Below are positions 10,498 through 21,149 of a DNA stretch of 64,000 nt, one piece after another. The stretch comes from Bacteroidetes bacterium HGW-Bacteroidetes-2 (lineage in GTDB: Bacteria; Bacteroidota; Bacteroidia; Flavobacteriales; Flavobacteriaceae). The notes beneath the pieces are model-generated. The model ran no database searches, was not told the DNA's origin, and worked only from the letters and a program-made list of their open reading frames with translations. Every line of letters begins with the position of its first letter. Within the stretch, counting starts at the first letter, position 1. The position numbers and the translations under genes were made by a program. The stretch lies in the NCBI GenBank assembly GCA_002842575.1, contig PHDJ01000004.1, positions 1 to 64,000 of the forward strand. The letters run 5' to 3'.

Positions 10498-11058
10498 TTA
10501 TATATTTTCTAGGTTTTGATTTCTTTTGTGCTTTAACTCTTTATAATATGAAGGAGAAAGTCCATTAATTTTTTTAAATTGGTTAGATAGATGAGCTACA
10601 CTGCTGTAATGTAGTTTATAAGAAATTTCAGTAAGCGTAAGTTGGTCATATAAAAGTAATTCTTTTACTTTTTCAATCTTATGAAAAATAATGTATTGCT
10701 GAATGGTTATGCCTTTTACTTCAGAAAAAGTATTCGCAAGATAGGTATAATCATAATTTAATTTTTCGGAAATGTATGTTGAATAATTAACTTTTGGAAT
10801 TTCATCTTGGTAATGAATCATTTCAATTATAATGTTTTTTATTTTTTCAATTAAGATGCTTTTTGAATCATCTAGAAGCTCTAATCCCGATTTTAAAAGA
10901 TTTATTTTAAGTGTATCATGCTGTTCAAGAGTAATGTCTTCCATTATTTCTGCCGATCCTAATTCAACATTAATATACCTTAAGCCAAGTTTCTTCAGCT
11001 CTTCTTTAACTAGCATTTTGCAACGCAGGCTAACCATGTATTTAATGTATAGTTTCAT
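10498..11058 (-). CDS. AraC family transcriptional regulator
   Basis: The C-terminal half has two helix-turn-helix units: YTYLANTFSEVKGITIQQYI (about 104-123) and LTEISYKLHYSSVAHLSNQF (142-161). They end with the AraC signature KKINGLSPSYYKEL. The N-terminus MKLYIKYMVSLRCKM resembles a small beta-alpha domain with one cysteine (C13). It could respond to a ligand or metal, but no effector is evident. It is transcribed away from the redox cluster that begins at 11686. The 627-bp gap between them holds a long dyad, so it is a candidate regulator of that cluster. Confidence 0.85.
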   Translation of the reverse strand: MKLYIKYMVSLRCKMLVKEELKKLGLRYINVELGSAEIMEDITLEQHDTLKINLLKSGLELLDDSKSILIEKIKNIIIEMIHYQDEIPKVNYSTYISEKLNYDYTYLANTFSEVKGITIQQYIIFHKIEKVKELLLYDQLTLTEISYKLHYSSVAHLSNQFKKINGLSPSYYKELKHKRNQNLENI

Positions 11059-11685
11059 AAATTACCAGTTTTTGAATTGCTTTACTTGGTTGTTTAAAAA
11101 AGCTTAGAATTTTTAAATCGATAAAATTTAGCAATCCTTCATTAACTTAGTATTCTTTAATTAAAACATATTATTTTGAATATCCTACTACGGATTAATT
11201 GTATTGTTTTTAGCTTCTCAATCATACATTTAATTTGATTTAATGTTTGCTAATTTCAATAATTATATTAAGATATTATTACAAAATAAACAAGAAATCT
11301 TACATATATCTTAGTTTAATGTAAAGAAAGTGGGGTGATTTATGAATACCTGTTTAAAAAGTTCTGGCATACTTAATAAAAATAAAATATTCTATCCATA
11401 TGATATAAATTAGGACTACTAAATTTCAATCTATCATTAGATTTAAACAAGAAGATATACTTATAAAAAAAATTACTGCATTTATGGAATATTTTTTAAA
11501 ACATAAATGTTTTTAACATAAAAATTTTAAACAAAAATAAGGTTTTTAAAAAACATATAGAGCAGGTGTTAATTTTATATTATATGACATTTGTCATATA
11601 ATACAGTAGTAATAATTAAGAAATTTACACCATAATATTTTAAAATCATTTCAACCCAAAAATTATTTATAAAATTCAACTAATT
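11059..11685. other. 627-bp divergent intergenic region
   Basis: The gap between the divergent AraC gene and the redox cluster has no convincing coding frame or structured RNA. It is extremely AT-rich. The one distinct element is the dyad at 11578-11603. Promoters for the cluster should lie in the last 150 bases, but no clean TTG/TAnnTTTG pair was found. Confidence 0.5.
11578..11603. promoter_or_regulatory. 12-bp-arm dyad, probable operator
   Basis: The core TATATGACA-TT-TGTCATATA is a perfect inverted repeat with a 2-base centre. The symmetry extends three further bases on each side. It sits 82 bases before the first ATG of the redox cluster. Size and TGACA/TGTCA half-sites suit a dimeric regulator such as a CRP/FNR-type protein, but no family assignment is secure. 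Confidence 0.55.
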
Positions 11686-12561
11686 ATGAAAACACAAAAA
11701 AAACTTTATTTATTTATTTTAGGTATTCTATTTATGGGACTCCAAAGTTGTACCCATGATGATCGCGACACCGTAATACCTGTTCCAGTTGATGAAGATC
11801 AAATAGCATATGATGCTGCAGATATGATTAATGGAAGTAGATTGTATAACGATTTTACAAAAGCTGAAACTGGCTTTGTAGCACCTAATGATCCCGCAGT
11901 AGTTCTTGAAAACATTACAGGTTTTAAGGATTTTTACAGATGTAAACAATGTCACGCCTGGGATCAAAAAGCAAGATTTGGATCCTACATTAACAGAGCT
12001 CCAAATGCTACAAGACCTGATATATCCTCTGTTCAATTAACAAATTTGACCTATGCAGACATAAGTATTTTGTTTGAAAAAATAAAAAATACCGGTGGTG
12101 CAGCTGTAGATCCTGCAAGAACTGCAGACGGTACAAACCCTGCATTAGGCGGTAATAATCACCCTGATTATGGAACTATACTTTCCGATGCCTTAATATG
12201 GGATTTGGTTAAATTTTTAAAAGAAGGAGCTCTTGATACAGATGAATTATATGCTATAAATACAGTAGGAACCTATCCAACAGGCTCAAGAACCTTTACC
12301 GATTTAGGCAGAAATGGTAATGCCACCGCTGGGAATGCCTTTTATGCAGCTAAATGTGCAAGTTGCCATGGTGCAGATGGTACAACCATTCCATTAGGAG
12401 GGAATACCTTAGGAAAATTTACCAGATCTAATCCGCACGAAGTACAACACAAAGTGGTTTCTGGTCAACTAGGATCTTCCATGGGATCTACCCCTACAAC
12501 ACTTGAAGAAATGAAAAACCTTTATAAAGCACTGAGCAATCAAACTGTATATCCTGACTAA
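11686..12561 (+). CDS. diheme c-type cytochrome lipoprotein
   Basis: A lipoprotein signal ends in LQSC (Cys22), so the 291-residue protein should be anchored to a membrane facing the periplasm. Two heme c sites are seen: CKQCH (86-90) in an N-terminal domain and CASCHG (224-229) in a classic C-terminal cytochrome c domain. A possible axial Met is in QLGSSMGSTP. The arrangement resembles periplasmic diheme electron carriers such as TsdA-like proteins, but the substrate is unknown. It is the first gene of a plus-strand run of eight; a 116-base gap with an 18-bp inverted repeat follows. Confidence 0.85.
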   Translation: MKTQKKLYLFILGILFMGLQSCTHDDRDTVIPVPVDEDQIAYDAADMINGSRLYNDFTKAETGFVAPNDPAVVLENITGFKDFYRCKQCHAWDQKARFGSYINRAPNATRPDISSVQLTNLTYADISILFEKIKNTGGAAVDPARTADGTNPALGGNNHPDYGTILSDALIWDLVKFLKEGALDTDELYAINTVGTYPTGSRTFTDLGRNGNATAGNAFYAAKCASCHGADGTTIPLGGNTLGKFTRSNPHEVQHKVVSGQLGSSMGSTPTTLEEMKNLYKALSNQTVYPD

Positions 12562-12579
12562 AGCAGGCAATCTTAAAAT

Positions 12580-12640
12580 AAATCTAATTTAGAATTTAGC
12601 AAAGTCCCTAGGTGGTTTTACAAAATTCTAAATTAGATTT
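12580..12640. repeat. 18-bp perfect inverted repeat between cytochrome genes
   Basis: AAATCTAATTTAGAATTT (12580-12597) and its exact reverse complement (12623-12640) flank a 25-base loop. There is no T run after the stem, so this is not a typical terminator. It could block exonucleases or set relative expression of the upstream diheme cytochrome and the downstream genes. Confidence 0.8.
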
Positions 12641-12676
12641 CCTAAGAAACCAAATAGAAACTAAAAAACAATAAAA

Positions 12677-13054
12677 ATGAAAAAAATATTTCAATTTTTG
12701 CTTGTGATAGGAATGAGTTTGATGACTTTCTCATGTTATTATGATGAATTAACAGATCAAACTAATCTTCCATTACCTCAAAATATATCGTTCCAAGATC
12801 AGGTGCAACCTATATTTACTCAAAACTGTGTTAATTGTCATAATGGAAATCAAAATCCAGATTTGCGCTCAGGCAATTCATTTAATGCATTGCTTAGTGG
12901 TGGCTTTGTGATTTCATCAGATTCTGAAAACAGTGTTTTATATAAAAGTTTAATAGGACAAGGAGCACCACTTATGCCACCAAGTGGTGGCATAAGTCAA
13001 ACTAAAATAAATGTAGTAAAACAGTGGATTGACGAAGGTGCACTTAATAACTAA
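12677..13054 (+). CDS. monoheme cytochrome lipoprotein (PSCyt1-like)
   Basis: The 125-residue protein has a lipoprotein signal ending FSC (Cys20) and one heme-binding site CVNCH (51-55). The preceding VQPIFTQN and the C-terminal GAPLMPPSGG...VVKQWIDEGA are typical of planctomycete-type small cytochrome c domains. The Met in PLMPP is the likely axial ligand. It is periplasmic and membrane-anchored. It precedes the DUF5777 barrel by 16 bases, suggesting a surface or outer-membrane electron route. A 12-bp hairpin (12970-12997) lies inside its coding sequence. Confidence 0.85.
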   Translation: MKKIFQFLLVIGMSLMTFSCYYDELTDQTNLPLPQNISFQDQVQPIFTQNCVNCHNGNQNPDLRSGNSFNALLSGGFVISSDSENSVLYKSLIGQGAPLMPPSGGISQTKINVVKQWIDEGALNN

Positions 13055-13070
13055 TCTCAAAAATATACAA

Positions 13071-13919
13071 ATGAAAAGATATAAATCAATTCTAGCAGTG
13101 GCATTTATTTTTCCACTTATGATTTTTGCCCAGGAAGATGCAGATGCTACTGAAGAAACAGTAAAACTTGAAAGAGCGGCTTTTGAAAGTACTGCACTCA
13201 TTGAAAATCAAACCGATGTGCTCAATACAAAAGGGACATTAGAAATGACCATGAATCACCGTTTTGACATGGTGGATAGTGATAATTCACTTATTGGGCT
13301 TTATGGAGCTGCAAACATTCGGATTGCTTTAAGTTATGCTATTCATGATAGAATAACCGTAGGATTTGGAACCACAAAAGATAACCGATTACAAGATTTT
13401 AATCTTAAAGGTGCCATATTAAGACAAACCCGAGGTAATGAAATGCCAATAAGCGTTAGTTATTATGGAAACTTTACTATTGACGCCAGACAAAAAAATC
13501 AAGATCTTTTTTACCATACAGAAGACAGATATTCTTTTTTTAACCAACTAATTATTTCAAAACGATTCACTAGAAATATATCCTTTATGGTAGCACCAAG
13601 TTTGTCACACTATAATTTGGTTGAAAACACTATGAAAAATGACATGTTTGCAATAGCCTTTGGTGGTCGTGCAAAAATTAGCCCACAAACCTCTATCATA
13701 GCCGAATATAATCAACCAATTACTACCTTTGATTCAGGAACACCTGAACCTGGAGTTAGTTTAGGTTTGGAGTTTTCAACAGGATCACATGCATTTCAGG
13801 TTTTTATTACTAACTATAAAGGAATCGTAGCGCAAAAAAACAATATGTTTAATCAAAACAATTTTTTTGATGGCGATTTCATGATTGGTTTTAACATAAC
13901 CCGATTATGGCATTTATAA
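13071..13919 (+). CDS. DUF5777-type outer-membrane beta-barrel protein
   Basis: The start is the ATG at 13071 (MKRYKSILAVAFIFPLMIF), because the 14 codons before it in frame are not leader-like. The 282-residue protein has a signal peptide, a short acidic linker, then alternating amphipathic strands: LEMTMNHRFDMVD, GLYGAANIRIALSY, ITVGFGTTKDNRLQDFN, and a final strand FMIGFNITRLWHL. This matches the Bacteroidetes DUF5777 family, predicted outer-membrane barrels often encoded with cytochromes. In this operon it could act as a pore or scaffold for the cytochromes; that is inference. Confidence 0.78.
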   Translation: MKRYKSILAVAFIFPLMIFAQEDADATEETVKLERAAFESTALIENQTDVLNTKGTLEMTMNHRFDMVDSDNSLIGLYGAANIRIALSYAIHDRITVGFGTTKDNRLQDFNLKGAILRQTRGNEMPISVSYYGNFTIDARQKNQDLFYHTEDRYSFFNQLIISKRFTRNISFMVAPSLSHYNLVENTMKNDMFAIAFGGRAKISPQTSIIAEYNQPITTFDSGTPEPGVSLGLEFSTGSHAFQVFITNYKGIVAQKNNMFNQNNFFDGDFMIGFNITRLWHL

Positions 13920-13928
13920 AAACACATT

Positions 13929-14195
13929 ATGAAAAAATCATCTAAAAAAACAAAGAATCAAATTAGTAGAAGAGGATTTTTACCGATGCTAGGAGGGGGG
14001 TTAATCCTTCCTCTTCTCGGTTTTGGAAAAGCCTCACCTGAGGTGCTTGGAGAAGATAGTGATGCTTACCAGACCATGCTTAAAGCTGACGGTACAACGG
14101 TAAGAGTAAAAAAAAGCGTGTTGGAAAAATCAAAAGTAATTGAAAAAAATATTTCCAATAAATCCTTTTTAGGATGGTTGAATAAAGATAAATAG
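13929..14195 (+). CDS. small Tat-signal protein
   Basis: The 88-residue product carries a twin-arginine leader NQISRRGFLPMLGGGLILP (12-30) and then only about 45 mature residues. These include YQTMLKADGTTVRVKKSVL, a short module that recurs just after the Tat leader of the next gene (ELMSTDGHIMQVPSSEV). It has no cysteines for a cluster. It may be an assembly or anchoring partner of the ferredoxin subunit 6 bases downstream. No function is known. Confidence 0.8.
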   Translation: MKKSSKKTKNQISRRGFLPMLGGGLILPLLGFGKASPEVLGEDSDAYQTMLKADGTTVRVKKSVLEKSKVIEKNISNKSFLGWLNKDK

Positions 14196-14201
14196 AGTAT
14201 T

Positions 14202-15140
14202 ATGCAAGAAGACAAAAAGAAATCAAGGCGTAAATTTTTTGAATTAGGCATTAAGTTTGGCTTACTCGCATCTGTTGGTACAGTTGCTGTAGCAAAGGCA
14301 TTTGATGACGAGGAAAATTCAGGAATGATAGAACTTATGTCCACCGATGGTCATATAATGCAAGTGCCTTCTTCTGAGGTTCACGATATGGGACATATCC
14401 AAAAGGATGGTTATGATCCAAGAGCTGGATTTCCAAATAAAAAGTTTGTAATGGTAGTGGATTTAGCCAAGTGTAAAAATGCACTTAAATGCCAAGAATC
14501 TTGTAATAAAAACCATTACATCACAGGTGAAAATGCTTGGCTGAAAGTATATAAAATGCAGGAGTCTGAAAAAACTGCACCTTATTTTATGCCAACACTT
14601 TGCCAGCATTGCGATAAACCACCCTGTGTTAAAGTATGTCCTGTTGATGCCACTTTTAAACGCCAAGATGGAATTGTTTTGATAGATAATGAGCGTTGTA
14701 TTGGTTGCAGGTTTTGTATGGCAGCTTGTCCTTATTCAACAAGAGTTTTTAACTGGAATGAGCCTGATCAGCCACAAGCTGCTCACACAGGCACATATAC
14801 TCCAGACCACACGGGTAAACCAAGTGTAAAAGGTACGGTAGATAAATGCGATTTTTGCCCTCATAAAATTGATATGGGTGAACTTCCACACTGTGTTACA
14901 GCCTGCCCTAATGACGTTTATTCCTTTGGTGACATTTATGAAGATGCAGTAACCAATGGAAGTGGACAAACATTTAAACTAAGCGCACTTTTAAAAGAAC
15001 GATCTGGTCACCGATTGTTAGAAGGATTAGGTACCGAACCTAGCGTTTATTATTTACCCCCAACAGAAAGACTTGTTGAATTTGAAGAAGGTATGGAAAA
15101 CTACACGGAATTTCAATCTGTCAAAAAAACTGAAGAATAA
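14202..15140 (+). CDS. Tat-exported 4Fe-4S ferredoxin subunit (DmsB/NrfC/PhsB type)
   Basis: A twin-arginine leader (KKSRRKFFELG) is followed by a 312-residue iron-sulfur protein with four cysteine groups. These are CKNALKCQESC, CQHCDKPPCVKVCPV, CIGCRFCMAACPY and CDFCPHKIDMGELPHCVTACP. That is the four-cluster pattern of electron-transfer subunits in membrane oxidoreductases. It should lie on the periplasmic side and exchange electrons with the NrfD protein, whose ATG overlaps its stop codon (TAATG). The usual molybdopterin catalytic partner is not encoded next to it. Confidence 0.92.
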   Translation: MQEDKKKSRRKFFELGIKFGLLASVGTVAVAKAFDDEENSGMIELMSTDGHIMQVPSSEVHDMGHIQKDGYDPRAGFPNKKFVMVVDLAKCKNALKCQESCNKNHYITGENAWLKVYKMQESEKTAPYFMPTLCQHCDKPPCVKVCPVDATFKRQDGIVLIDNERCIGCRFCMAACPYSTRVFNWNEPDQPQAAHTGTYTPDHTGKPSVKGTVDKCDFCPHKIDMGELPHCVTACPNDVYSFGDIYEDAVTNGSGQTFKLSALLKERSGHRLLEGLGTEPSVYYLPPTERLVEFEEGMENYTEFQSVKKTEE

Positions 15141-16453
15141 TGAAACCATATGATAAATTAATACAAGACCTCGCTCCCCAAAAATTTGGAATGCGTGGCA
15201 AAATTTGGATAGCCTTTTTATTAGTAGTTATTCTAGCAGCACTATATGCTTATTATCAACAATTTGATAAAGGTTTAATCATCACAGGTATGCGCGATTA
15301 TGCATTGTGGGGAGTCTATATTTCAAACTTTGTTTTTTTTGTGGCTATTAGTTTAGTAGGCTCTTTGGTTACTGCTATTTTAAGACTTTCTGGAGTTAAA
15401 TGGAGTACACCCCTTACCAGAATATCTGAAGTTATAGCCGTAGCAGCTATTATTATGGCAGGCCTTACCATCATCATTGATATGGGTCGTCCTGACAGGA
15501 TTTACAATATTTTTTTACACGGCAGATTACAGTCGCCAATTATTTGGGATGTTTTAGTAATAACAACCTATTTATTGATTAGTATCTTGTTATTGTATTA
15601 CCCTCTTTTACCCGATTTTGCAATTTTAAAAAAATACTTTAGTAACAAACCAAAATTAAGTAAATGGTATGGCAAACTTTCGTTAAAATGGACAGGTACT
15701 AAAAAACAAACTAGTATTTATAATTCATCTATAAAAACACTTTCCATTTTAATTATTCCTGTTGCTTTCGGAATACATACAGTTACGGCTTGGCTTTTTG
15801 CTACTACGTATCGTCCGGGGTGGGATAGCACCAATTTTGGACCCTATTTTATAGCTGGCGCTTTTGTTGCCGGAGCTGGAGCAGTTGTGGTAATTATGTT
15901 TGTTTTAAGAAAAATATATCATCTTGAAAATTATATCACCGATTTGCACTTTGATAAAATGGGTAAATTATTGGTTCTGTTATGTTTGGTTTATTTGTAT
16001 TTCAATGTAAACGAATACTTAATTCCCGCCTATAAAAGTACAAACGAAGAATCTGCACATTTAGAAGAACTGTTTTTTGGTAGTTATGCACCTTTATTTT
16101 GGACAGTTATTATAGGTGGTTTAATTGTGCCAGTAATAGCTTTAGTTTTTCCAAAAGGAAGAAAACCACTGCCCCTTTTTATTATTGCATTGTTAGTAGT
16201 ACTTGGAGCCTGGTGGAAACGATATATTATTGTAACACCAACCTTACTCCATCCATTTTTACCCATTCAAGGCGTTCCTGAAAGCTGGAGGCATTATTTT
16301 CCTACCGGTTTAGAGTGGACCATCACTTTTGGCACTTTAGCTTCGGCACTGCTTATTATGACTATTTTGTTTCGTTATTTACCCATTATTCCAATACACG
16401 AAACTGCTGAAGAAAGAGGAATTTTAGAACATGATAAAACCGAAACATTATGA
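15140..16453 (+). CDS. nrfD: NrfD/polysulfide-reductase-type integral membrane subunit
   Basis: The 437-residue protein has about ten membrane segments. It opens with the family's MRDYALWGVYISNFVFFVAIS, then DMGRPDRIYNI, WLFATTYRPGWDS and a final segment before a polar tail. NrfD-type proteins exchange electrons between (mena)quinol and a periplasmic ferredoxin subunit; the length matches ActC/HmeP-like members more than short NrfD. It overlaps both neighbours by a few bases, so it is tightly coupled with the ferredoxin and the anchored periplasmic protein. Confidence 0.9.
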   Translation: MKPYDKLIQDLAPQKFGMRGKIWIAFLLVVILAALYAYYQQFDKGLIITGMRDYALWGVYISNFVFFVAISLVGSLVTAILRLSGVKWSTPLTRISEVIAVAAIIMAGLTIIIDMGRPDRIYNIFLHGRLQSPIIWDVLVITTYLLISILLLYYPLLPDFAILKKYFSNKPKLSKWYGKLSLKWTGTKKQTSIYNSSIKTLSILIIPVAFGIHTVTAWLFATTYRPGWDSTNFGPYFIAGAFVAGAGAVVVIMFVLRKIYHLENYITDLHFDKMGKLLVLLCLVYLYFNVNEYLIPAYKSTNEESAHLEELFFGSYAPLFWTVIIGGLIVPVIALVFPKGRKPLPLFIIALLVVLGAWWKRYIIVTPTLLHPFLPIQGVPESWRHYFPTGLEWTITFGTLASALLIMTILFRYLPIIPIHETAEERGILEHDKTETL

Positions 16454-17331
16454 TGAAGTTAGTTACTTTTCGCAGCAAATTAGCCACGCTACTTTTTATG
16501 ACATTATTTGCTTTTTTTGGCACAAAAGCATACAGTCAAGACGATAAAATAGGTGCTAGAATCACCATTGAATATGTGAAAGTTGTAAATGAAAACTCCT
16601 TCATAAAATTATCTGCTATTTTCAGAGGAGAGGATGGTTTTGAACCTTGCCAGAATTTAAACTTTACTATTTATAAAGTTGAAGTTGACAAAGATGATGA
16701 GGAGCTTAATGCCGAAGTAAAAATAGGCGAAGCAAAGACAAACTATGATGGAAAAGCAACATTTATTGTGCCCCCAGAATTTATTACAATAACCAATGAT
16801 TTTATTGTTAGAATTGAAGACAGTGAAATGTATGAAGACGATGAAGAAACCATAACCGTTGTAAATGCCAATATGGAAGCGTCTATCGTTGAAATAGATA
16901 GCATATATCACATTCAAGCACGGTTATTTACTTTAGAAGATGAACCCATTGCAGAGGAGGAAATTAAAGTAGGTCTAAAACGTCTATTTGGCAGTCTAAC
17001 TGTTGGTGAAGACGATAGTTACACTACCGATGAAGATGGATCTATATTGGTTCCAATACAAGAAGGATTTACAGGAATTGATGGAAAACTAACCTTTGAA
17101 ATAGTTCTTAAGGAAAGTGATGACTTTGGCACGATAATCGCATATATTAACTCAGATATTGGTGTTCCTATTAAAGATGAATCCACATTCAATCAAAGAA
17201 CGATGTGGTCGCCACCTACAAAGACTCCTTTATTTTTATGGATAGTACCTAACATTTTGTTGGTTGGAATCTGGGCCATTTTGTTATTTTTGGTTATTAA
17301 CTTATTTAAAATTTATAAATCTAAAATTTAA
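16450..17331 (+). CDS. membrane-anchored periplasmic protein with Ig-like segments
   Basis: The 293-residue protein has a signal peptide (cleavage likely after TKAYSQ). About 210 residues of beta-rich acidic sequence follow, in which two halves each contain a DGKATFIVP / DGKLTFEIVL type strand. A C-terminal membrane helix (about 265-287, LFLWIVPNILLVGIWAILL) and a short positive tail end it. There are no cysteines for heme apart from one isolated Cys. I do not recognise the family. Its 4-bp overlap with the nrfD gene suggests a structural subunit of the same complex. Confidence 0.75.
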   Translation: MMKLVTFRSKLATLLFMTLFAFFGTKAYSQDDKIGARITIEYVKVVNENSFIKLSAIFRGEDGFEPCQNLNFTIYKVEVDKDDEELNAEVKIGEAKTNYDGKATFIVPPEFITITNDFIVRIEDSEMYEDDEETITVVNANMEASIVEIDSIYHIQARLFTLEDEPIAEEEIKVGLKRLFGSLTVGEDDSYTTDEDGSILVPIQEGFTGIDGKLTFEIVLKESDDFGTIIAYINSDIGVPIKDESTFNQRTMWSPPTKTPLFLWIVPNILLVGIWAILLFLVINLFKIYKSKI

Positions 17332-17336
17332 TTATT

Positions 17337-17741
17337 ATGAAAAACGTGAAATATTTATTACTAGTAGGAATTTTTGCAATTGCTACACTTTCTTTTACCT
17401 CGGCGATTCAAGATGAATGGGTCGTACCAGCAAAATACAAAACAATGAAAAACCCTACCGATGCAAAAGATAGTGAAAATATCGCTCTAGGGAAATCCTT
17501 ATATGCCAAACAATGCAGCTCTTGCCACGGTAAAAAAGGTTGGGGTGATGGCTCCAAAGCAAAAGAAATGAAAGGTGACTTAGGTGATTTTTCATCCAAA
17601 AAAACACAAGGAGATACAGATGGTGAATTGTATTACAAAATAACCTTTGGCAGAAATGATATGCCAGCTTTTGATAAAAAAATAGCCTCTGAAGAGGATC
17701 GCTGGTTAGTAGTCAACTTCTTAAGAACCCTTGCAAAATAA
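17337..17741 (+). CDS. monoheme cytochrome c
   Basis: The 134-residue protein has an N-terminal export signal (ATLSFTSA) and a class I cytochrome c fold. CSSCHG is at 60-65, an axial Met in GRNDMPAF, and the closing helix EEDRWLVVNFLRTLAK. It should be a soluble or membrane-tethered periplasmic carrier delivering electrons to or from the NrfD complex. It lies 5 bases after the anchored protein and ends the operon at a strong terminator (17761-17790). Confidence 0.92.
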   Translation: MKNVKYLLLVGIFAIATLSFTSAIQDEWVVPAKYKTMKNPTDAKDSENIALGKSLYAKQCSSCHGKKGWGDGSKAKEMKGDLGDFSSKKTQGDTDGELYYKITFGRNDMPAFDKKIASEEDRWLVVNFLRTLAK

Positions 17742-17760
17742 AATACGCAAGCATTCAGAT

Positions 17761-17790
17761 AAAAAAACCGAACAAAAAGTTCGGTTTTTT
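17761..17790 (+). terminator. Rho-independent terminator of the redox operon
   Basis: A perfect 12-bp stem, AAAAAACCGAAC with GTTCGGTTTTTT, flanks a 5-base loop (17773-17777) and ends in a T run. It separates the monoheme cytochrome from its truncated duplicate. Confidence 0.92.
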
Positions 17791-17858
17791 TATCTCTATT
17801 AATGACATTTATTTAAATATACTAAATGGATTAACAATGTGTAACAAAAAAAAATAGT

Positions 17859-18569
17859 ATGAAACCTTTATTCCTATTAGGATTATTAATTTCAGTTTTA
17901 ATTTTTCAAAGTTGTAAAAACAATACAACAAATCAAGAAGAAGTAACTCTTGATGAAACAGAGCAAATAGCACCACATAATGTAGATAGTACAGCAATAG
18001 AAACCACTATAGAAAATATAGAAGACACTTCCTCTATTGTTTCGGAAACTGTAAAAAGCGGAACAACTTCAAAAGAAGTTATAACCACAGAAGTTAAAAC
18101 CACTAAAACAATTGAAAAAACCGTAAAACCTATTGTTGTAGAAACTAAACCTGTGGTAAAAGAAAATCCAAATGAACCAGAAGTTGTTGTGGTTGAAAAA
18201 CCAATAACCAAACCTGTAGAAGAAAAACCAGTAGCCAAACCTGTAGAAGAAAAACCAATAGCTGTTACTGATCCAACAGAATGGATTGTACCGGCAAAAT
18301 ACAAAACTATGAAAAACCCAACGGATGCAAAGGATAGCGAAAATTTGGCTATCGGCAAATCTTTGTATGCCAAACAATGCAGCTCTTGCCACGGTAAAAA
18401 AGGTTGGGGTGATGGTTCAAAAGCTCCAGAAATGAAAGGCGATTTAGGAGATTTTTCATCTAAAAAAACACAAGGAGATACAGATGGTGAATTGTATTAC
18501 AAAATAACCTTTGGCAGAAATGATATGCCAGGTTTTGATAAAAAAATACCTTCAGAAGAGGATAGATAA
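17859..18569 (+). CDS. cytochrome c lipoprotein, duplicated and C-terminally truncated
   Basis: A lipoprotein leader (LIFQSC, Cys19) is followed by a Thr/Glu/Val/Pro linker with tandem KPVEEKP units. A cytochrome domain nearly identical to that of the preceding gene follows (CSSCH at 174-178, GRNDMPGF). It stops at SEEDR, where its neighbour continues WLVVNFLRTLAK. The DNA after the stop still encodes TLAK plus stop in another frame (ACACTAGCAAAATAA), so a deletion of about 22 bases has shifted the frame and removed the last helix. Heme attachment could persist, but the fold is probably unstable. It may be a recent pseudogene. Confidence 0.85.
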   Translation: MKPLFLLGLLISVLIFQSCKNNTTNQEEVTLDETEQIAPHNVDSTAIETTIENIEDTSSIVSETVKSGTTSKEVITTEVKTTKTIEKTVKPIVVETKPVVKENPNEPEVVVVEKPITKPVEEKPVAKPVEEKPIAVTDPTEWIVPAKYKTMKNPTDAKDSENLAIGKSLYAKQCSSCHGKKGWGDGSKAPEMKGDLGDFSSKKTQGDTDGELYYKITFGRNDMPGFDKKIPSEEDR

Positions 18570-19628: not shown

Positions 19629-21149
19629 ATGAAAAAATTAGCCCTATTACCTATTTACTTTTTATTGAGCTTGTTTGTATTTACATCGTGTACTACAGAT
19701 GAAGCTATTAATGACAACGCCAATTCTGAAAGTATTGCAATGAACTCGCAACTGGCAAACTTGTTAGTAAGAACTTCGGAAAACAGCAATAACCCGAATG
19801 CTATAAATTGTATTAATTTTCAATACCCTATAACTTTTATTTTACTGAATGTTAATAATCAACAAACGGGTACTCAAACCGTTAATAATGACGCTGAACT
19901 TTTATTTTTTCTAACAACTATTGATCCAAATGGTTCTGTAAGTATCGTTTTCCCTATTAATGTTATCCTCTCTGACGGAGCAATTGTTACAGTTAACAAT
20001 AACCAAGAGCTGTTAGATATTATTATTGCTTGCGACAGTAATGGTGACGGTCAGGTGCCAACAAATTTTACTGAAATATTAACCGATGGCGTTTGGTTTG
20101 TTACCTACTATTTTGATAACCAAGATGAAACAAATAATTTTGCAGGATACCAATTTTCATTTGCCACAAACCATACAGCACAAGCGGTTATCAGTTCAAC
20201 AGTTATAAATGGAAATTGGAATTTAACCTCTAGCAGCACGCCAGATTTAACCCTATATTTTGGTGAAGCAAGTCCTTTAGATGACTTAGACGAGAACTGG
20301 CAAATTATTGAAGCAACGCCATTAATTATTCGTTTAAAACATACAAGCGGAGGTGATGGAACAGTAGATTTTCTTACCTATGAACGCACTCCAAATACAG
20401 GTGGAGGTTCAGGAGGAGGCTCTCTAGATTTAGTTAACTCATTGGTAACAAATACTTGGTATGTAAACCTACTTGAGGAAGATGGAAATAATGAAACTTG
20501 TGATTATGTTGCCTATCAATTTACATTCAGTATAAACCAAACTGTTGTTGCTGTAAGTACTTCAAATACTGTAAATGGTACTTGGGCTGTAACTTCTAGC
20601 AGTAGTGGTTTAGACTTAGAAATTAATTTTGAAACTGTTGGCGAAAACGATCCTTTTGAAAATTTAAATGATGATTGGGACGTGACTAACTTTACTCTAG
20701 AAAACATTAACCTTGTTGACATAAGTGGAGGAAATGGAGGTACAGACTATCTTATTTTTGGAAGAAATCCTTACTCAAATTGTTCAGGTGGTGGTACTGG
20801 AAACACCCAAGAATTAATAGATATACTAATTAGTGGCCCTTGGTTTGTTCAAAGCTATGTAGATAGTGGAAACAATGAAACCAACAATTATACAAATTAT
20901 GTGTTAACATTTAATGCAAATGGTAGCGTAGATGCTACAAACAATAGTAATACTATTAACGGCACATGGAACATAACTACCTCTAATAACAGTGGTCTTC
21001 ATTTAGAATTATATTTTGGAGAAGTAGCTCCCTTTGATGATTTTAATGATGATTGGAATGTGTCTAATTTTACAACAACCTTAATTGAACTCTTTGACGT
21101 AAGTGGAGGTGATGGTACTACAGACACTCTTACCTTTCAAAAATTATAA
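19629..21149 (+). CDS. lipoprotein with three lipocalin-like repeats
   Basis: The 506-residue product has a lipobox TSC at residues 19-21. An N-terminal domain of about 140 residues contains FQYPITFILLNVNNQQTG. Then come three copies of a repeat of about 110 residues. Each copy starts L[IV]xx(G/T)xW[FY]V and contains Y.FTF...VNGTW.[IV]TSS, L.LYFGE..P.DDLNDDW and a terminal SGG.G..D.LTF. Gly/Ser linkers separate copies one and two. The pattern resembles surface lipocalin or DUF4923-like repeats of flavobacteria. It is probably outer-membrane-attached and exposed; the ligand is unknown. A strong terminator follows. Confidence 0.85.
   Translation: MKKLALLPIYFLLSLFVFTSCTTDEAINDNANSESIAMNSQLANLLVRTSENSNNPNAINCINFQYPITFILLNVNNQQTGTQTVNNDAELLFFLTTIDPNGSVSIVFPINVILSDGAIVTVNNNQELLDIIIACDSNGDGQVPTNFTEILTDGVWFVTYYFDNQDETNNFAGYQFSFATNHTAQAVISSTVINGNWNLTSSSTPDLTLYFGEASPLDDLDENWQIIEATPLIIRLKHTSGGDGTVDFLTYERTPNTGGGSGGGSLDLVNSLVTNTWYVNLLEEDGNNETCDYVAYQFTFSINQTVVAVSTSNTVNGTWAVTSSSSGLDLEINFETVGENDPFENLNDDWDVTNFTLENINLVDISGGNGGTDYLIFGRNPYSNCSGGGTGNTQELIDILISGPWFVQSYVDSGNNETNNYTNYVLTFNANGSVDATNNSNTINGTWNITTSNNSGLHLELYFGEVAPFDDFNDDWNVSNFTTTLIELFDVSGGDGTTDTLTFQKL

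Follow-up and report, generated by a model that had tools for sequence, protein, structure and literature searches.

A predicted menaquinol:cytochrome c oxidoreductase module with outer-membrane lipoprotein cytochromes in Bacteroidota

We analysed a 64,000-nucleotide stretch of the Bacteroidetes bacterium HGW-Bacteroidetes-2 genome (assembly GCA_002842575.1, contig PHDJ01000004.1, positions 1 to 64,000; hereafter the window), in which nine genes running in the same direction occupy positions 11686-18569. We consider it probable, at roughly 0.62, that this cluster encodes a minimal menaquinol:cytochrome c oxidoreductase, resembling alternative complex III (ACIII) and DsrOP, that would feed outer-membrane lipoprotein cytochromes and, through them, an anaerobic acceptor at low oxygen. 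Several separate sequence results argue for the core of this reading, though not for the acceptor. What we read from sequence is the gene content, its conservation, the quinol-site and cluster ligands, the absence of a molybdoenzyme from the organism's own genome, the enrichment of an upstream motif and the co-occurrence with nosZ. The cluster comprises the following features.

11584..11597 (no strand): palindrome ATGACATTTGTCAT (ATGA-N6-TCAT), a CRP/FNR-like putative operator 102 nt 5' of cytA
11686..12561 (+): cytA, 291-aa diheme c-type cytochrome lipoprotein (Cytochrom_C; two CxxCH), lipobox LQSC followed by THDD
12677..13054 (+): cytB, 125-aa monoheme PSCyt1-like lipoprotein cytochrome; CBB3 and PSCyt1 matches weak, below cut-off
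13071..13919 (+): DUF5777 outer-membrane beta-barrel protein with signal peptide; PF19089, 255 bits
13929..14195 (+): Tat88, protein of 88 aa whose Tat-type signal reads SRRGFL; similar to the N-terminal extension of FeS
14202..15140 (+): FeS, DsrO-like ferredoxin with Tat-type signal and 15/16 cluster cysteines
15140..16453 (+): NrfD, DsrP/ActC-type quinol-binding integral membrane subunit; PF03916, 119 bits
16450..17331 (+): beta, exported protein of two Ig/prealbumin-like domains and a C-terminal transmembrane (TM) helix
17337..17741 (+): cytC, soluble periplasmic monoheme cytochrome, ActE-like; Cytochrome_CBB3, 49.6 bits
17761..17791 (+): probable intrinsic terminator 3' of cytC (perfect inverted repeat with T-run)
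17859..18569 (+): cytD, lipoprotein with a Pro/Glu/Lys-rich spacer of about 120 aa and a C-terminally shortened cytC-like domain; CBB3, 38.6 bits

Seven genes, from cytB to cytC, are tightly packed, with cytA just 5' of them and cytD set apart beyond the inverted repeat (successive gaps of 115, 19 (16 from the ATG at 13071), 9, 6, -1, -4, 5 and 117 nt). Four of the nine encode c-type cytochromes, three of these being lipoproteins. The repeat was read directly from the sequence; a promoter and terminator scan was no richer than its own shuffles and did not include 17761-17791 among its listed items. Every gene named in the original prediction is present where it was placed, and most are backed by family matches. 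The PSCyt1 label had a weak match behind it (18.9 bits against a cut-off of 22), and no family over cut-off was matched by the beta-rich protein. Its single monoheme cytochrome proved to be two paralogues, cytC (17337-17741) and cytD (17859-18569), and Tat88, which it had left unnamed, is a conserved gene of the cluster.

Quinol-side core

The FeS, NrfD and cytC products resemble ActB, ActC and ActE, which makes an ACIII/DsrOP-like oxidoreductase the best reading of the core. The NrfD score against PF03916 (cut-off 25.8 bits) places this protein with NrfD/PsrC-like quinol-interacting subunits, and comparison with known structures returned ACIII subunit C (6btm_C, E 2e-45) and, as the best chain, one labelled NrfD (8k9e_C, E 4.4e-48). 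The available text of PMC8076601 names a Ser, an Asp five positions on and an acidic residue in TM2 for quinol handling in NrfD-type proteins; matched to these by spacing, S132 and D137 were each conserved in 94/94 homologues and the TM2 acid D114 in 88/94.

The FeS protein had been described as a four-cluster ferredoxin. All four motifs are there, but the ligand set is one short: 15 ligand cysteines are Cys in 92/92 aligned homologues. The exception is residue 94, at the place of the second motif I cysteine: the window has Ala there, and among the homologues the counts are 72 for Ala, 15 for Leu and 2 for Cys. Since motif I lacks this Cys, one cluster is probably [3Fe-4S] or absent. The organism's own ActB likewise lacks one Cys, but in motif III. 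By analogy with cluster ligation in NarH, the cluster bound by motif I would be the one most distant from the membrane, which in other systems faces the molybdopterin subunit; we treat this as a lead and not as a test.

Aligned with the ACIII subunits of its own genome, cytC shares 32% identity with ActE (103 aa, E 6e-9), the module NrfD 29% with ActC and the module FeS 32% with ActB. These subunits, named by similarity, belong to an ACIII operon located elsewhere (G000:C78, L160), and the genome has PF03916 matches at two places. Given this separate ACIII operon, the module would represent a second quinol:cytochrome c route, acting beside the regular complex and not as its replacement. The originally proposed transfer of electrons from quinol to cytochrome is supported.

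Tat88 resembles the N-terminus of FeS (hhalign probability 96, E 1.5e-9), and family scans gave it no family over cut-off. An AlphaFold2 model of beta (mean pLDDT 89.7) has two Ig-like domains and a helix at the C-terminal end (261-292); Foldseek returned generic Ig/MG-like folds only, and the matches from a profile search, to Intimin, membrane-protein and transthyretin-like entries, were all weak.

Conservation, partners and the outer-membrane side

Scanning named genomes with an NrfD alignment identified at least 576 relatives, of which 80 were taken; together with the window and three further genomes they make up 84 mapped loci, several of them on truncated contigs. Across Bacteroidota the core order was (variable lipoprotein)-cytB-DUF5777-Tat88-FeS-NrfD-beta-cytC; Chitinophagaceae-type loci were rearranged, with cytC ahead of FeS. 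FeS and beta were each present in 81 of the 84 loci, cytC in 77, DUF5777 in 70, Tat88 in 68 and cytB in 67. Because this order recurs in genomes of several families, the cluster is far from a chance assembly. The homologue sets used were A4 (60/69), A5 (68/84; coordinate-listed, besides the window), A6 (15/16) and A7 (13/16), and sequences with X and truncated or short open reading frames (ORFs) were left out of counts.

For genome searches, module presence was scored by the beta protein alone. In the window's family, the beta profile matched 26/299 genomes, 24 of them credible and spread over 19 genera; two weak matches (G492 and G515, E about 2e-4) were left out. A narrower profile matched 10/395 genomes phylum-wide. 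Within the window's genus the module is in G000, which is the window's own 3.0-Mb assembly (listed as 99.99% complete, with the window on contig C88), and in G001, and is absent from G002-G004. Thirteen loci fetched around beta matches (L161-L173) had NrfD adjoining beta in 13/13 and FeS in 12/13, the thirteenth lying at a contig end; for 16 of the 24 family genomes the assignment was made from the beta match.

As the original prediction had claimed, the cluster has no catalytic molybdoenzyme. We searched 16 genomes, 13 of them with the module, for PF00384 and found no match in the window's own genome or in the module genomes G001, G202 and G437; G183 gave sub-cut-off matches only, and three module-free congeners matched. 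When the stretches around the 84 loci were compared with 30 queries, one for each locus fetched for a PF00384 match and in each case its longest open frame, the similar ORFs were FeS proteins or fragments only, among them a split FeS copy in L080. A hidden molybdoenzyme partner was rejected on these searches and this comparison, and no conserved molybdoenzyme accompanies the same-order clusters in the stretches around the 84 loci. The accompanying claim, that FeS and NrfD are normally partners of a molybdoenzyme and that its absence is surprising, was overstated: pairs without molybdenum are already described in the available parts of PMC8076601, PMC11434368 and PMC3534657, which makes the surprise smaller.

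The first position of the module is an exchangeable slot. Among the 84 loci it held a diheme cytochrome in 16, a hexaheme cytochrome (cyt6h) in 16 and a lipoprotein with an EB_dh domain in 22 (PF09459, 102.6 bits for one member); L033 carries all three, and other loci have YceI, CusAB or nothing in place of the slot cytochrome. The hexaheme bears on a reading that we find quite improbable, in which the slot is filled by a new multihaem reductase related to NrfA and octaheme nitrite reductase (ONR), with the module as its quinol dehydrogenase in the manner of NrfABCD or MccACD and the diheme of the window as an aberrant version. Its profile does match ONR (8rv0, E 1.3e-11) and NrfA (3ubr, E 2.2e-9), and cyt6h was found at E < 1e-90 in 23/33 module genomes (22/24 in the window's family) and in 0/47 module-free genomes, 13 of which had weak matches (best E 2e-6). 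However, all 16 hexahemes have six CxxCH motifs and no CxxCK, by which we rejected cyt6h as an ordinary NrfA; of the catalytic residues, the Tyr after CAQCHVE aligns with an Arg in the alignments, and no conserved residue stands opposite the His of AQHPE; and 10/33 module genomes, including the window's own, lack cyt6h. With the hexaheme in 22 of 24 family module genomes, the diheme of the window's genus is a minority variant in this sample.

Lipoboxes are present in cytA, cytB and cytD. CytA matched Cytochrom_C at 45.3 bits, and H159 and M266, possible distal heme ligands, are conserved in its family (n=16). CytC and cytD are paralogous monohemes; at 236 aa, cytD stops 12 residues short of its 248-aa counterpart in L005, from the same genus, and its family occurs in 6/84 module loci. 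After the lipobox Cys, an acidic residue at +4 was found in 15/16 cytA, 14/14 cyt6h, 12/15 EB_dh and 46/60 cytB homologues with a lipobox (68 cytB homologues in all), compared with 12/76 other lipobox ORFs of the same loci and 1/6 cytD (slot and cytB families against background, pooled Fisher 4e-20, for homologues that are not independent and a background that, unlike the module families, was filtered for a signal-peptide-like start). The available text of PMC5080379 gives surface-lipoprotein export signals of Bacteroidota such as QKDDE and SDDFE. The DUF5777 model (AlphaFold2, mean pLDDT 92.5) has 12 strands, with the porin NanC as best Foldseek match, and a literature search for 'DUF5777' found no paper. 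L006 contains, close to its module, a free-standing set of YceI, DUF5777 and cytB-like genes (809-2627), suggesting that barrel and cytB, as an outer-membrane pair, can be separated from the rest.

These features make a route to the outer membrane, as originally proposed, a supported possibility. The further step to extracellular electron transfer, in which surface lipoprotein cytochromes would reach minerals, humics or partner cells, was not borne out and seems to us unlikely. The hexaheme matches the MtrC/MtrF domain (both copies first scanned were over cut-off, and 14/15 reached E <= 0.01), the acidic +4 residues are compatible with surface export, and a similar proposal is made for Melioribacter roseus in the available text of PMC3534657. 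The cluster itself points the other way: among its nine genes there is nothing beyond a diheme, the rest of its cytochromes being monohemes, and no periplasmic multihaem conduit is encoded; the window's genome has no cyt6h family member. Large Mtr-type barrels sheathe a cytochrome, and the DUF5777 barrel, with its 12 predicted strands, would be too narrow to do so. An Mtr-type conduit through DUF5777 was rejected on this predicted strand number and is unlikely.

We infer the direction of electron flow, the outer-membrane destination, the identity of the regulator and the acceptor. In the oxidoreductase that we favour, NrfD would oxidise menaquinol at a periplasm-facing site and pass electrons to the Tat-exported FeS subunit, with beta, anchored alongside, probably holding the complex together or docking the cytochrome. 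The ActE-like cytC would carry electrons across the periplasm to outer-membrane recipients, namely cytB with the DUF5777 barrel, the slot protein cytA and, in the window, also the spacer-tethered cytD, and from these lipoprotein cytochromes the electrons would reach an anaerobic acceptor at the outer membrane.

The surroundings of the module vary. In the window, a gene for an AraC-type regulator lies 5' of the cluster (10498-11058) and one for a DUF3179 protein 3' of it, both on the opposite strand, and the nearest named relatives of the locus, among the matches listed, are Flavobacteriaceae. Positions 19629-21149 of the window hold a lipoprotein-like ORF of 506 aa whose three domains look alike; a 505-aa counterpart adjoins the module in L005. 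A second FeS-NrfD set in tandem, with beta mostly shortened and in some cases with cytC, was seen in L163 (11299-14589), L077, L056, L037, L039 and L095. CusA/CusB-like efflux genes lie upstream, without a slot cytochrome, in L036, L038, L041, L045, L047, L049, L059, L060 and L161; many such loci are from Cyclobacteriaceae, and most have DUF3144, a small outer-membrane protein and unknown genes downstream. Among the 84 mapped loci, nine have a putative hemA (glutamyl-tRNA reductase) gene next to the module, as do four loci fetched later (these include L028, L043, L070, L074, L075, L078, L163, L170, L171 and L173). Genes that we presume to be for [NiFe]-hydrogenase maturation lie near the module in L078 (17229-21286) and L171 (16439-19499), with structural genes in L078. 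The NrfD of L025, a metagenome-assembled genome (MAG) labelled Bifidobacterium breve, is 84% identical to that of the window, and this locus is mis-binned or mislabelled.

Nitrous oxide reductase and a shared palindrome

The module is associated with nosZ. In the window's family, nosZ (PF18764) was found in 139/299 genomes, comprising 24/24 credible module genomes and 115/275 others (Fisher 3e-9), so that the conserved module is confined to nosZ genomes in this sample; the two genomes with weak beta matches are not nosZ-positive, and counting them as module genomes gives 4e-7. All nine further module genomes outside the family sample have nosZ, and the module-free G004 does not. In a second set of 49 genomes behind the named loci (from L019-L098, with L048 and 30/80 loci left out), nosZ was present in 37. 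A tie to nitrite reduction was rejected: NirK was over cut-off in 6/33 module genomes, 15/32 module-free genomes with nosZ, 3/15 nosZ-free genomes and 9/49 of the second set, and does not track the module, and NirS-family matches over the 25.5-bit cut-off were few and weak (11/80 genomes, seven with the module; best 38.2 bits, in a module-free genome).

A sequence motif links the two systems further. The palindrome ATGAN6TCAT lies no more than 400 nt upstream of 31/64 module operons (counted strictly upstream of the gene), in 24 cases at 60-110 nt; block shuffles gave a mean of 0.9 and a maximum of 4, and the count among other genes was 30/414, with 9 at 60-110 nt. By first gene, it precedes 12/15 diheme, 8/12 hexaheme and 5/9 EB_dh operons, and TGACANNTGTCA occurs once in the window, where 0.05 occurrences are expected. 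The same palindrome precedes the cytochrome gene of the nos operon in 14/21 module and 18/20 module-free genomes (the former with a single upstream window per operon; 17/21 with several windows allowed), and in the window's genome it stands at -71 of the nos operon. A CRP/FNR-type regulator that also serves the nitrous-oxide-reductase operon would probably turn on expression of the module when oxygen is low.

These associations raise the possibility that the module is a dedicated supply for nitrous oxide (N2O) reductase, with electrons running from menaquinol through NrfD/FeS, cytC and the outer-membrane lipoprotein cytochromes to NosZ, itself a lipoprotein. We regard this as possible but on balance doubtful. 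It would account for nosZ in 33/33 credible module genomes of the two sets and for the shared palindrome, and in L078 ([Muricauda] meishanensis) module and nos operon lie side by side in divergent orientation, with a small ORF for a putative Rrf2-type regulator between them. NosZ carries a lipobox in 37 of the 41 genomes examined (L159:8906-10858, L078 and L175-L213), which suggests that NosZ in these Bacteroidota is probably membrane-anchored. Against such a supply, a lipoprotein cytochrome c is already encoded in the nos operon itself, the nos operon and module adjoin in just 1/80 named loci within the stretches examined, most nosZ genomes lack the module, and nosZ is present in 37/49 genomes of the second set and in 4/11 with the diheme subtype of the window. 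N2O reductase is the leading acceptor candidate across the phylum and is not settled for the diheme subtype.

A broader form of this idea, which we also consider doubtful, sees in the module an unnamed, phylum-wide respiratory system of Bacteroidota. In it, a quinol oxidase that amounts to a stripped-down relative of complex III would drive electrons to an outer-membrane terminal unit, which can be exchanged between a diheme, a hexaheme derived from NrfA and an EB_dh lipoprotein, and would serve N2O-linked anaerobic respiration at the outer membrane and not in the soluble periplasm. We think it very unlikely that electrons run in reverse, from an outer-membrane donor such as Fe(II) or a reduced small molecule to quinone. 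Related subunits do occur in Qrc and Nhc, which are cytochrome:quinone oxidoreductases according to the available text of PMC8076601, but the similarity of cytC and NrfD is to subunits of ACIII, which oxidises quinol, and the module is linked to nosZ genomes.

Several findings weigh against the menaquinol oxidoreductase feeding an outer-membrane acceptor. The cluster has no gene for an acceptor enzyme. Eight of 13 module genomes have PF00384 matches over cut-off elsewhere in the genome, so that molybdoenzyme absence is not general. The acidic +4 residues agree only partly with the export signals in PMC5080379, being reminiscent of them and not identical. The palindrome precedes none of the 12 module operons that start with cytB, and it also precedes hemN, which indicates a broad regulon that is not nos-specific; it probably marks a general low-oxygen regulon. 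Twelve of the 49 module genomes of the second set have no nosZ match (mostly MAGs, with completeness not given), and nosZ-free genomes are concentrated among those with a diheme cytA (7/11, against 5/38 others; Fisher 0.002). In the family, 115 of the 139 nosZ genomes have no module. Their nos operons look alike with or without it (NosZ lipobox 19/21 and 18/20; palindrome as above), so N2O respiration seems not to require the module, and we rejected the idea that NosZ lipoprotein status or the operon motif is specific to module genomes. Finally, the genomes and loci in all counts are related by descent and were treated as separate.

In the literature searched we found no description of the electron supply of N2O reductase in Bacteroidota. 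The module would make this supply, and the outer-membrane electron transfer of Bacteroidota in general, directly testable in named isolates that carry it, such as [Muricauda] meishanensis (L078) and Eudoraea adriatica (L074).

Relation to known systems

No described complex with the same gene set was found in the literature searched, in agreement with the suggestion that the set is undescribed, and membership in ACIII, DsrMKJOP or NrfABCD was rejected by gene content or curated scores. With ACIII (ActABCDEF) the module shares homologues of the FeS part of ActB, of ActC and of ActE and, by our proposal, quinol:cytochrome c oxidoreduction; the cluster differs in lacking a multihaem ActA, a long ActB fusion, ActD and ActF. 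The best NCBIfam matches of FeS and NrfD are DsrO and DsrP of DsrMKJOP (the DsrJOP part), but both fall below the equivalog cut-offs (191.5 of 200 and 154.2 of 350 bits; FeS also matched Fer4_11 at 79 bits), and none of the ten proteins scanned matched DsrM, DsrK or DsrJ (for FeS, among the best 25 of 70 NCBIfam rows). In NrfABCD and MccACD, too, an FeS protein and NrfD feed a multihaem cytochrome, and the cyt6h of sister clusters is related to NrfA and ONR. The NrfC equivalog score is, however, 114.8 of 377.6 bits, cyt6h has no NrfA-type CxxCK heme, and the window's cluster encodes neither NrfA nor a protein like cyt6h. MtrCAB and other porin-cytochrome (Pcc) conduits likewise combine an outer-membrane barrel with lipoprotein cytochromes; they differ from the module, with its 12 predicted barrel strands, in having a multihaem periplasmic conduit.

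Further parallels are FeS-NrfD pairs without a molybdopterin partner, for which the available text of PMC8076601 lists NrfABCD, MccACD, Nhc and DsrMKJOP. Melioribacter roseus, from the same broad group, has such a pair (NrfCD, Mros1571-1572), proposed to feed an outer-membrane Fe(III) reductase; compared by description, it differs in that the available part of PMC3534657 describes only two subunits. SirCD of Shewanella and Cbc4 (CbcSTU) of Geobacter are also quinol dehydrogenases made of an FeS protein and a membrane subunit without a molybdopterin subunit, Cbc4 having an additional cytochrome (PMC11434368, available in part). They come from Proteobacteria/Desulfobacterota and, as described there, have no barrel, beta or outer-membrane lipoprotein set in the operon. 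Molybdenum-free FeS/NrfD quinol dehydrogenases are therefore already known, and we regard the cluster as a probable variant of this kind.

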